This document shows, in pieces, positions 42,918 to 46,906 of a stretch of DNA of 64,000 bases (the stretch's first letter is position 1; each line of letters opens with the position of its first letter). Source of the DNA: Sulfitobacter pontiacus (GTDB lineage Bacteria; Pseudomonadota; Alphaproteobacteria; Rhodobacterales; Rhodobacteraceae); the NCBI RefSeq assembly GCF_040790665.1, contig NZ_CP160849.1, positions 992,001 to 1,056,000 on the forward strand, given 5' to 3'. A model generated the notes under the pieces. That model saw nothing but the letters and a program-made list of their open reading frames with translations. It ran no database searches and was not told the origin of the DNA. The position numbers and the translations under genes were made by a program.

Positions 42918-43808
42918 TCAACGGCGGATCGCCAGCCGTGCGGCAAGCCAGCTGACCAACATCAGCGCAAAATCGACAGGCAACCACGCGCGCAACGCGT
43001 CAACATCATCCATCCCGAAGGGGGTCAAATACAGCGCCAAACCCGATAGGTCATCGGGCAGAGAGGTGATGACGATCGCCGCGACATTATTGCAGAAATG
43101 CACTGCAATGGCTGGCCCCAGCGACCCCGCCCGCGCGGTCAGATCGGCCATCAACATCCCGAAGACACCGGCCCAAAGTGCTATGACCAGCGCATTTTCG
43201 CCGGCTTGATCGGGAAGATAGTGCCCAAGCGCGAAAATCACGGCCGGCAGCACCATCCACACCAGCGGAGAGTTGAACCGTGCCGCCAACTGCTGCTGGA
43301 CATAACCGCGAAAGACGATCTCTTCGGCGCTGACCTGTACCAGCACCCCGAGCAGCGAAAACGGCAGCAGCATCAGCCATGTGCCAAGCGCGAGGTTGGG
43401 CACATAGGGCGCGCCAAGGTTCCACGGTGGCAGCAAATAGGTCACCGCACCAAGCAGCACCAGCATCTTGAGCACGGCCCAGAACTGCGGCACCACCAGC
43501 CCCGACGGGCCGATCAGGCCACGCACGGGACGTTTGTGGATCACCCGTGTCACCACGGCCACGCCGACAATCATCAACCCGAAGCTGCCAAGCAGCAGGA
43601 ACATCGCCATCGGCGTCTTGCCTGACAGCAAGCTGTCATAAAACCCGTCCGCACGCGGCCCCATCAGGTTGAACAGGGTGGTGAACATCAGGTTGTTGAG
43701 CAGCAGGTAGATCGCGGTTGCCGCAAGAAACCCCAAGATCAGCCGCCACAGCGCCGCCGAGGGGATCGCAGGGGCGACAAAGGCTTTGTGGGCAGCGTAT
43801 CGGGTCAC
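42918..43808 (-). CDS. CPBP family intramembrane glutamic protease
   Basis: 296 residues with about eight membrane segments. All three CPBP/Abi motifs are intact: EEIVFR (Glu162-Glu163, Arg167), FALGH (192-196) and HFCNN (237-241). Family members include CAAX-prenyl processing enzymes and bacterial proteases that clip membrane proteins. The GTG start overlaps the stop of the large ABC-like gene (GTGA), so the protease is translated together with it and may act on it or on a shared partner. Confidence 0.88.
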
Positions 43809-46800
43809 GCGGGGTCATCTCCTACGGGCGGGGGCAAGGCTTCGTCTTCGCGCGGGATATCCACCCGTGCCGCACGAAGCAAGTCGGCGGCGTTGGTCAG
43901 ATGGCTTGATACCGTGCGTAGAAGGCTCAGCAGGATCACACGGTCGTTTTCAACCACCGACTTGAATTGATCCGCGCCGATCCGAAGGAAACGGCTGTCT
44001 TCGAGGGCGACAAAATCCATCTGCCGCGGCTCGTTCACGATGACCGCAAGGTCACCGATCAACCGCCCCTTTTCGACGGTCGAGACGTGATGCGCCAACC
44101 CTTCGGGGTCGCGCCAGCTCAGCTCTCCCTTGCCCGACAGACAGAGGTAGACCGCATCTGGCCGTTGGCCTTGAGCAAAGACCATCTCGCCCTGTGCGAC
44201 GGTGTACCACTGCGCCGCAAAGGCCAGCAGGCGTTGGTTGCGCGGGTCGAGGTTGCCGAACAAGTCATTGCGCGCGATGATCCGCAGCTTTCGTCGCAAA
44301 TCGTCCGAGATGCTGTCGTCCTGACTGGGGATATCAACCTGCGCCAGACCGTCAATGCGCCCGCCACGGATCTTGATGTACATGTCGAAATCGTCAGGAT
44401 TAACAAAGGAGCTATCCATGTAAATCTGGGTCGTCTCGGGCAGCAGTTCGCTGACCTTGTCGCGCAACCGTTGCAGGCTTTCTGCGTCATGCCCCGCAAG
44501 CGACTGGTTCAGGATCAGGATATCGGGTCGTTTCATCGCCGCGCGGCTGAATCCGGCGCGTTCCTGAAACATCATCGCGATATTTGACCCGCCGATGCTG
44601 ACCGGCAGATCAAAGACGTTGAGCGCGACGTCCTGTTGCAGCCCGTGTTTCTTGAACACGTCCGACACCACATCCAGAACCAGATCCGCCTGAAGCCCCG
44701 CCACGGCGGAAATCCGGCCATACAACACGTTTTCGAGTATCGTCAGACGCGGCAGATACTGGTCAGGTGTGATCGGCACGAACATATCCCGCGCCCGTTC
44801 GCGCATCTCGGACCCCTGCTGCTTACGGATTTTCAGGATCTCGTCCTTGAAGGTCGCAGGGAAAGCCGGGCCGATCTGTTCGGCCGTGAAGGCAAAGGGC
44901 ACGGTAAGCAGCAACGAGAATTCATCCTCGCTCAGCGCTTCATCCCCTTTGGCGCGACGCCGTAGCGCGATATCGACCAGTTGTTCGTACAGTTCTTCCT
45001 CGATGCCGAGAGCGGTGAACAGCGGGTGGTCGGTGCCATCACGACCAAAGGTCTGGTGCAACGTTTCTACCAGCGTCTGTGAAATCGCGATGCCCTGCTC
45101 GGCCAGACCCTGTTCGATGATCATCGCCAGAAAGCTGCGTTCAAGCGCCAGACCCGCCTGCGAGATGCTGCGGATGGGCGCGGCGAACATCAGGTTCCCC
45201 CCAAGCGGCAGCGCCGGGTTGAACCGATCTGGGTCAAAGCGGTGCACCACCTTGTCCAGCCCTTGCTCTTTCAGCCGCTCGTGCACCTCGTCGCGCAGGG
45301 CAACCACGCGGGCCGCAAGCTCGGGGTGTTTTTCCGGGTCCATGCGATCGGCGGCCATGCGACGGAACATCATGTCCTGTGTGCCAACGGCGCTGGCCAG
45401 CTCATACCACCAGTCGTTGATGTCCTCGCGGGTGCTCAGATCGGCGAGCCCGGGGTCCAGCCAATCCGCCTTGGTGCTGTCCAGACTATTGCCCGACCGC
45501 TTTGTCTCGATCGCGGCGCGGTCGGTTTTCATGGGGTCCCAGAGGACGGTTTTCGGGCTCGACCGCAGAGGCATCAGCAGATTGTCCCCGACGGTGCCCT
45601 GAAACAGATAGGGGTGCGCATCGGAATAGCCGATCCGCGCCGCAAGCACGGCCTGATGCAGCTCTGCCAGATTATGCCCCGCCATCGTGATCCGCCCGCG
45701 GCTCGGCACGGCCTCGCGCACCAAAAGCTCTGCCAGAGCGTTGCGTTCGGATTGGTTGGGCATCTCAAGCGCGACGCGCGCGCCTTTGGGTATTTCGAGG
45801 TTTAGATCATCCAGGATCGTGTTCCCGTCCGGCGTGCGCAAAGACACATGTTCCAGTACGATAGGGCCGCGCAGATGCGGGACTTCATCGGGCTCGCCTT
45901 CGAACAGGCGCGCGTCGATCTCGCCCCGCGGGGCGAAACGTTCAATGACCACATCCCACCGCAGCGACATGTCCTGCGTCTGGTTGTAATAGGTCAGCAG
46001 TTCCTTCCACGGGCTCGACAAATCCTTGTAGGCGGCCAAGGCCGCGACCAGCGCGCCCACCGTGATCTGCCCCTTGATCGCAAGATAGCCCCCAACGGCA
46101 TAGAAAAAGAACGGTGTCAGCTGGGTGATGAAGTTGTTGAGAAACTTCATGAAGAATTTCTTCTGATAGATCTGGAAGCGGACCTCGAACAGCTGGCCCA
46201 GCCGGTCGGTGAACAGCGCCAGACGGTAGCGCCAGCCGCCGTTGGTGCGCAGATCGGTGATACCGGCGGCGGTCTCGCCGATTTCAGACGACAGGTGCCG
46301 CACTTCCTTGATGCGCTGTTTGTTCAGCAGGTTGATCTGCCGCTGCAGCATCGGGATGAGATACGCCTGCAACGGGATCAATGCGACGCCCGCCAACCCG
46401 AACCACGGGGATTGCAGGAAGAGGAACAGCAGGATGATCAGCATCTGCCCCGCCTGGAACACAGGCTGGGCGACCGCATCGCCCATCAACCCGCCCATCG
46501 GCTCTGCCTCCGAGGTGACCATCGACACCAGCTCACCCTGACTGGTGTTTTCGAAATAGCTGCGCGGAAAACGCATCATCCGCGCGATCAACTGATAGCG
46601 GAAGCGACGCAGTAGCCGCTCTGCCAGCACCCCCTTCATCGTGTTCAGACGCATCTTCATCAGGCCGTGGATCAGCACCGAGAAAAGATAGGCAAAACAC
46701 AGCACCATCAGGAACTGCACCTGACTGAACGACATCCCGAAAACGTCGATCACATCGGTCTCTGCCCCAATGGCATCGTTGATGATGCGCTTGGGCAGTT

Positions 46801-46906
46801 CGAGGGTGATGTAGAGGATCGGGAAGGTAATCAGCGTGAGGACAAGCAAAACCAGTTGGTCACGACGGGAGTATTTCCAAATAAAGGAAAAAATCGAATG
46901 CTCCAT
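43805..46906 (-). CDS. ABC-exporter-like protein with degenerate ATPase domain, large insertion and C-terminal cNMP-binding-like domain
   Basis: 1,033 residues. An ABC transmembrane domain with about six helices occupies 1-310. The NBD-like region (about 345-865) keeps the fold pattern but not the catalytic residues: Walker A reads LEMPNQSERNAL (380-391) without GK(S/T), the Q-loop Gln is Ala430, Walker B ends LILNQ (Asn800, Gln801 instead of Asp-Glu), the signature is VSIGGS, and no H-loop His is seen. About 300 extra residues separate the Q-loop from the signature. A cyclic-nucleotide-binding-like domain (about 885-1008) retains GD951-952 and Arg961. The ORF is intact, so it is not an obvious pseudogene. 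Function unknown. Confidence 0.85.
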   Translation of the reverse strand: MEHSIFSFIWKYSRRDQLVLLVLTLITFPILYITLELPKRIINDAIGAETDVIDVFGMSFSQVQFLMVLCFAYLFSVLIHGLMKMRLNTMKGVLAERLLRRFRYQLIARMMRFPRSYFENTSQGELVSMVTSEAEPMGGLMGDAVAQPVFQAGQMLIILLFLFLQSPWFGLAGVALIPLQAYLIPMLQRQINLLNKQRIKEVRHLSSEIGETAAGITDLRTNGGWRYRLALFTDRLGQLFEVRFQIYQKKFFMKFLNNFITQLTPFFFYAVGGYLAIKGQITVGALVAALAAYKDLSSPWKELLTYYNQTQDMSLRWDVVIERFAPRGEIDARLFEGEPDEVPHLRGPIVLEHVSLRTPDGNTILDDLNLEIPKGARVALEMPNQSERNALAELLVREAVPSRGRITMAGHNLAELHQAVLAARIGYSDAHPYLFQGTVGDNLLMPLRSSPKTVLWDPMKTDRAAIETKRSGNSLDSTKADWLDPGLADLSTREDINDWWYELASAVGTQDMMFRRMAADRMDPEKHPELAARVVALRDEVHERLKEQGLDKVVHRFDPDRFNPALPLGGNLMFAAPIRSISQAGLALERSFLAMIIEQGLAEQGIAISQTLVETLHQTFGRDGTDHPLFTALGIEEELYEQLVDIALRRRAKGDEALSEDEFSLLLTVPFAFTAEQIGPAFPATFKDEILKIRKQQGSEMRERARDMFVPITPDQYLPRLTILENVLYGRISAVAGLQADLVLDVVSDVFKKHGLQQDVALNVFDLPVSIGGSNIAMMFQERAGFSRAAMKRPDILILNQSLAGHDAESLQRLRDKVSELLPETTQIYMDSSFVNPDDFDMYIKIRGGRIDGLAQVDIPSQDDSISDDLRRKLRIIARNDLFGNLDPRNQRLLAFAAQWYTVAQGEMVFAQGQRPDAVYLCLSGKGELSWRDPEGLAHHVSTVEKGRLIGDLAVIVNEPRQMDFVALEDSRFLRIGADQFKSVVENDRVILLSLLRTVSSHLTNAADLLRAARVDIPREDEALPPPVGDDPA

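Follow-up and report, generated by a model that had tools for sequence, protein, structure and literature searches.

A conserved alphaproteobacterial family of ABC-exporter-type proteins with degenerate ATPase motifs, and a possible role in ATP-independent glycan translocation

ATP-binding cassette (ABC) exporters are defined by ATP hydrolysis, and the degenerate halves of known heterodimeric exporters keep their Walker A motif. In SUR1 and SUR2B (ABCC8/9) the exporter fold serves regulation rather than transport; SUR has an extra N-terminal domain, and it binds and hydrolyses nucleotide. The ABC-type transmembrane domain (TMD) of SbmA works without ATP and is driven by protons (PMC13316013). 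Here we describe a protein encoded in a 64,000-nucleotide stretch of the Sulfitobacter pontiacus genome (contig NZ_CP160849.1, positions 992,001 to 1,056,000; hereafter the window) that has the make-up of an ABC-exporter half, with a TMD and the fold of a nucleotide-binding domain (NBD), and carries a C-terminal domain of the type that binds cyclic nucleotide monophosphates (cNMP). The intact frame of 1,033 residues that a first-pass annotation, made from the letters alone, had placed at 43805-46906 does exist, and lies on the minus strand. The conserved family to which the protein belongs suggests an ABC-type transporter that works without ATP.

Motif positions were assigned by alignment to the canonical exporters of the window genome, and this alignment bore out each of the losses claimed in the first-pass annotation. 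The Walker A position (MPNQSERNA) has R388 in place of Lys and N389 in place of Ser/Thr, the Walker B Asp-Glu is N800-Q801, the Q-loop Gln is A430 and the position of the missing H-loop His holds D831. The signature LSGGQ, not mentioned in that annotation, has become IAMMF. The motif set of a functional ABC ATPase (Walker A, signature, Walker B, Q-loop and H-loop) is therefore replaced throughout, and the D-loop Asp807 is still present. It had also been claimed that an NBD pattern is kept around the lost motifs, and this too is upheld by a structure model of the protein (mean predicted local distance difference test score, pLDDT, 79), in which residues 343-853 match the NBD of ComA (3vx4_A; Z 24.4, root-mean-square deviation 2.3 Å, 220 residues aligned). 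Because the modelled NBD fold aligns to 3vx4_A at this Z score, the motif alignment is not a product of chance. Other fold matches include SUR2B structures and the heterodimeric exporters TM287/288, TmrAB and TAP.

The profile searches give a similar picture. Pfam ABC_membrane matches residues 52-290 above its cut-off (E 9e-22) and cNMP_binding matches residues 903-988 (E 4e-15; 56.1 bits against a cut-off of 27.5), and ABC_tran stays below its cut-off (19.3 against 25 bits). None of the named NCBIfam exporter equivalogs (MsbA, HepA, ChvA/NdvA and others) was reached above its curated cut-off, the best score being that of MsbA (131.8 against 602 bits); for a distant relative, L230, it was that of HepA, the heterocyst ABC exporter family (159 against 725 bits). 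The SbmA_BacA Pfam model found no match in the window protein at E up to 1. A search of the window genome for a close paralogue with canonical motifs returned none, only weak matches to ordinary exporters.

Between the Q-loop and the signature the NBD is split by an insert of about 290 amino acids, which the first-pass annotation missed and which accounts for most of the extra size of the protein. Profile comparison identifies it as two extra copies of the exporter segment that follows the Q-loop, here called the NLLFG-helix module. Repeats 2 and 3 align to one another with an HHalign probability of 98.2% (E 4.7e-14). The native segment, counted as repeat 1, aligns to them with a probability of 86-91%; the Asn of each NLLFG is kept in 115 or 116 of 116 family members. 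When residues 450-768 were modelled separately the pLDDT was 89.7. Comparison of this insert model with the PDB gave no match below E 0.001, and its weak, local matches (Z 3.1-3.5) are to exporter NBD segments, for which reason we claim no new fold.

The motif losses are common to the approximately 100 full-length orthologues that were collected, and in no homologue is a canonical Walker set found at these positions. In an alignment of 99 homologues, which takes in three distant relatives, the positions of the Walker A Lys, Walker B Glu and H-loop His almost invariably hold other residues and the D-loop Asp is mostly kept. The median pairwise ratio of nonsynonymous to synonymous substitution rates (dN/dS) is 0.065 overall, which is not near 1, with medians of 0.05 for the TMD, 0.07 for the NBD halves and 0.06 for the cNMP domain; purifying selection is strong in every domain. 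The idea of a repurposed ABC fold, put forward in the first-pass annotation, gains from both observations and needs correction in one respect: the change is not a recent one-off, since the whole alphaproteobacterial family is degenerate.

A profile of the insert (A2) matches 98 of 289 alphaproteobacterial genomes (the class genomes), mostly in single copy, and in a phylum-wide sample its matches fall only within the Alphaproteobacteria. Motif loss in this family is general and graded. When eight ATPase features were scored in the 116 aligned members, none had the full set, and the best (L143) had six; the Rhodobacterales members, which branch as a clearly distinct group on the tree, retain from none to two. 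Of the 84 members that have no C-terminal domain fused to them, 44 keep the Walker A Lys, 42 the catalytic Glu, 38 the signature Ser and 30 the H-loop His. The Walker A Ser/Thr is kept in only 6, the Walker B Asp in 10 and the Q-loop Gln in 18, and thus it is the Mg2+-coordinating residues that have been most widely lost. Judged by its sequences, the family appears to be a real one: old, conserved, pseudo-ATPase, centred on the Alphaproteobacteria and with an unusual NBD architecture. Homologues of about 54-55% identity are also found on a few contigs labelled as Gammaproteobacteria (Moritella, Chromatiales, Granulosicoccus and others; L105, L111, L112, L113, L115), either through transfer or because the assemblies are mislabelled. 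A second group of paralogues (about 50% identity; G002, G006, G008, G014, G018, G021, G022) is often interrupted by one or two in-frame stops within the stretch that aligns, which could come from reading past the C-terminus or reflect genuine decay.

Conservation is highest in the TMD, where 156 of 330 positions reach 95% identity or more across the 99 homologues. It has a set of family-specific residues (K84, N88, R100, R101, R198, R203, R243, K250, K254, N257, K294, D295 and D312), the charges among which are present in at least approximately 86% of the 116 members and absent from canonical exporters; K250, K254 and K294/D295 are near or in predicted membrane helices. Most of these charges are also kept in two groups of TMD-only paralogues that have no NBD. 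From this pattern of conservation, the function of the pseudo-ABC protein seems to reside in the TMD. The closer of the two groups (L116:6407-7804, L117:6428-7729, L119:6421-7839, L114:8607-9803) comprises proteins of about 400 amino acids, approximately 38-48% identical to the window TMD, and those of L114, L116 and L117 adjoin genes for cupredoxin, multicopper oxidase, CusF-like or cytochrome c proteins. The second, more distant group (L120:1044-2057, L121:5860-6954) has 337-364 amino acids and about 30% identity.

A cNMP module adjoins the ABC protein or is fused to it in all 35 sampled loci. Outside the Rhodobacterales the usual neighbour is a separate cNMP-binding protein of about 150 amino acids, and in the window clade the module forms the C-terminus, apparently as the result of a gene fusion; the sample of the window genus yielded no stand-alone orthologue. 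The stand-alone proteins have a canonical phosphate cassette, GE(I)A...PRTAT, with the Glu in 31 of 32 and the Arg and Ala in 32 of 32. In the fused Rhodobacterales cassette the Glu has become Asp (24/24), the Arg is kept (24/24) and Thr-Ala is mostly Gln-Leu. The window cassette, GRLIGDLAVIVNEPRQMD, keeps the Arg (R961), has Asp for Glu (D952) and QM for TA, and does not match the canonical phosphate-binding pattern GE..A...R[TS]A. Class III cyclases are present in 96 of 98 ABC-positive class genomes as against 92 of 191 ABC-negative ones, and a search of the window genome found none. The C-terminal domain had been proposed as a ligand input in the first-pass annotation, and the PF00027 match supports the identity of the domain. 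For the window protein, however, ordinary cAMP gating is doubtful, given its changed cassette and the lack of a class III cyclase in the genome. Control by a cyclic nucleotide is thus plausible in the family at large and uncertain in this one member.

Gene context provides a clue to the function of the pseudo-ABC protein. The glycan gene cluster described next and the NBD insert are the strongest such clues, and the first-pass annotation had picked up neither. In other orders a set of six genes stands beside the ABC gene, encoding four glycosyltransferases (two GT28-like, two GT4-type), a histidine phosphatase and what we take, on weak similarity, to be a deacetylase-like protein. The set lies upstream and is usually divergent, with the glycosyltransferase cluster within about 10 kb of the ABC gene in 26 of the 35 sampled loci. 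The same six genes occur in the same order in the window genome, unlinked and about 0.85 Mb away (G000:C1, ~1.887-1.893 Mb). Of the 289 class genomes 91 have both the ABC gene and the first glycosyltransferase, 7 the ABC gene only, 1 the glycosyltransferase only and 190 neither; the corresponding numbers for 149 genomes of the window's taxonomic family are 30, 1, 5 and 113, and the p-values for this co-occurrence ignore phylogeny. In only one class genome, G048:C76, are the glycosyltransferase and the cNMP protein present and an ABC match missing, which may reflect an assembly gap. In several genomes of the window's family (G621:C11, G655:C1, G627:C1, G672:C23, G686:C26) a second ABC paralogue and the glycosyltransferase cluster are 30-36 kb apart, which may be a relic of ancestral linkage. 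A gene for an MscS-type mechanosensitive channel (L257:12133-14565) is found just upstream of the glycan cluster of the window genome, in divergent orientation. In the literature available as open-access full text we found no description of the pseudo-ABC family or of the six-gene cluster, which is a weak negative.

It is suggested here, with moderate confidence, that the window protein could be a catalytically dead ABC-exporter half, presumably homodimeric, which together with the six-gene pathway would act as an ATP-independent, ligand-gated translocator of an envelope glycan. Two such halves would assemble, and the TMD, lined with conserved basic residues, might pass or flip an anionic, sugar-linked product of the glycosyltransferase cluster. 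Transport without ATP hydrolysis could proceed down the substrate gradient or draw on the proton motive force. The dead NBD, together with its tripled module, may provide a rigid base for coupling. The cNMP-type domain, separate in other orders and fused here, would open or close the translocator on ligand binding. The homodimer, the transport with its substrate and energy source, the gating ligand and the NBD's part as a platform are all inferred. A wider proposal, which we make only tentatively and think somewhat more likely to be wrong than right, is that secondary, cyclic-nucleotide-gated glycan translocators are widespread in the Alphaproteobacteria and arose from ABC exporters by killing of the ATPase and tripling of part of its helical subdomain. 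After SbmA, this would be the second time that an ABC exporter had independently become a non-ATP transporter; here the disabled motor would still be in place, with intermediate stages of its decay preserved in living lineages.

Several observations weigh against the proposed translocator. The TMD model is locally weak (pLDDT below 50 at residues 148-178 and 285-300). The co-occurrence statistics, which take no account of phylogeny, concern two traits that both track larger genomes, and the glycan genes occur without the ABC gene in five genomes of the window's family, as does the ABC gene without the glycan genes in seven class genomes. The window genome lacks a class III cyclase, and the cassette of the fused cNMP domain is changed. 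An NBD acting in trans or a canonical half-exporter may serve as partner. In addition, some distant members retain the Walker A Lys, the Glu and the His, so that ATP binding, and perhaps even hydrolysis, may persist in parts of the family.

It is possible, although on balance unlikely, that the protein is instead a non-transporting regulator resembling SUR, in which the ABC fold and the cNMP domain sense a nucleotide or lipid and control the membrane glycosyltransferase pathway or a partner protein, with no passage of substrate. A dead NBD, a cNMP module in every sampled locus and the presence of SUR2B among the fold matches would all be in keeping with such a role, and co-occurrence with biosynthetic genes is by itself no proof of transport. 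A regulator does not readily explain, however, why the TMD should be the most conserved domain and have charges absent from canonical exporters, or why TMD-only paralogues persist without cNMP module or NBD; nor was another obvious exporter seen among the genes searched in the sampled glycan cluster.

The presence of TM287/288, TmrAB and TAP among the closest fold matches raises the question of whether, as in those heterodimers, a functional ATP site is contributed by a canonical ABC half-exporter whose gene lies elsewhere. We consider this improbable. The window genome does encode other exporter-type proteins, but no ABC half-transporter recurs beside the pseudo-ABC gene in the sampled loci, Walker A itself is gone, and even a partner would give only part of each composite site. 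A similarly low probability is attached to the view that the family is still powered by ATP, either through binding without hydrolysis or through an unorthodox ATPase site, with the Rhodobacterales branch at the extreme. Outside that order the Lys, Glu and His persist in the proportions given above, an LSxxQ-like signature is common and L143 keeps most of the features; against this, the Ser/Thr and Asp that coordinate Mg2+ have been lost in nearly every case, and Lys, Glu and His have all disappeared from the window clade. A decaying gene or an assembly artefact, to which the absence of all textbook motifs might point, is ruled out by intact frames in about 100 species, dN/dS of 0.05-0.07 in every domain and conserved synteny.

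The features of the locus are listed in Table 1. The order ABC gene, CPBP protease, AccD, FolC is conserved in the accD-linked orthologue group. The CPBP gene, a neighbour specific to the window clade, overlaps the ABC stop codon by 4 bp and adjoins the ABC gene in 63 of the 77 homologous loci that have enough downstream sequence.

Table 1. Coordinates of the pseudo-ABC gene, its domains and motif positions, and the adjoining gene, in window numbering.
Feature	Coordinates	Strand	Description	Basis
Whole gene	43805..46906	-	1,033-aa ABC-exporter-type protein, predicted pseudo-ATPase, with fused C-terminal cNMP-binding-type domain; ATG start	ORF and translation; ~100 full-length homologues
ABC-exporter TMD	45917..46906	-	Residues 1-330	PF00664, E 9.1e-22
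Pseudo-NBD, first half	45563..45868	-	Residues 347-448	NCBIfam/phmmer exporter matches, residues 345-450; fold match, insert skipped
Walker A position	45737..45763	-	Residues 382-390, MPNQSERNA; no Lys, no Ser/Thr	Alignments
Insert of ~290 aa	44702..45562	-	Residues 449-735, inside helical subdomain; family hallmark	Insert profile
Repeat 2	45068..45247	-	Residues ~554-613, FDpxxYNpxxxLxxNLLFG + helix module	HHalign; N571 invariant, 116/116
Repeat 3	44609..44791	-	Residues ~706-766, NLLFG-helix module, leads back into NBD	HHalign; N726 and G730 invariant, 116/116
Pseudo-NBD, second half	44327..44701	-	Residues 736-860; signature, Walker B, D-loop and H-loop positions	Exporter matches, alignments, fold match
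Walker B position	44504..44521	-	Residues 796-801, ILILNQ; Asp-Glu to Asn-Gln	Alignments
cNMP-binding-type domain	43877..44236	-	Residues 891-1010	PF00027, E 3.7e-15
CPBP/Rce1-like membrane protease gene	42918..43808	-	Motifs EExxxR, FxxxH, HxxxN	PF02517, E 4.2e-17

About one third of the sampled alphaproteobacterial genomes have this fold with no complete ATP site and with graded loss of its motifs, so that the conversion of a primary pump into a secondary transporter, gate or sensor becomes testable. One ABC protein, one cNMP protein and six glycan genes also offer a genetic handle on what looks like an undescribed envelope-glycan pathway. When known systems are compared, the window protein is most like the type IV ABC half-exporters (MsbA, HepA, PCAT/ComA, TmrAB) in its TMD and NBD fold (Z 23-25), and differs from them in having no ATPase motifs, in its insert of two extra helical modules and in its cNMP module. 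TM287/288, TAP and TmrAB resemble it in having lost catalytic residues in one NBD; in these, however, the partner gives a working site, whereas the window protein has no linked partner in the sampled loci and has lost Walker A itself. SUR1 and SUR2B offer a parallel for an exporter fold put to another use, although no channel partner is evident for the window protein. The SbmA/BacA (SLiPT) peptide transporters are the precedent for how an ABC-type TMD might work free of ATP, but SbmA is without any NBD, and the window protein keeps a full, apparently dead one.

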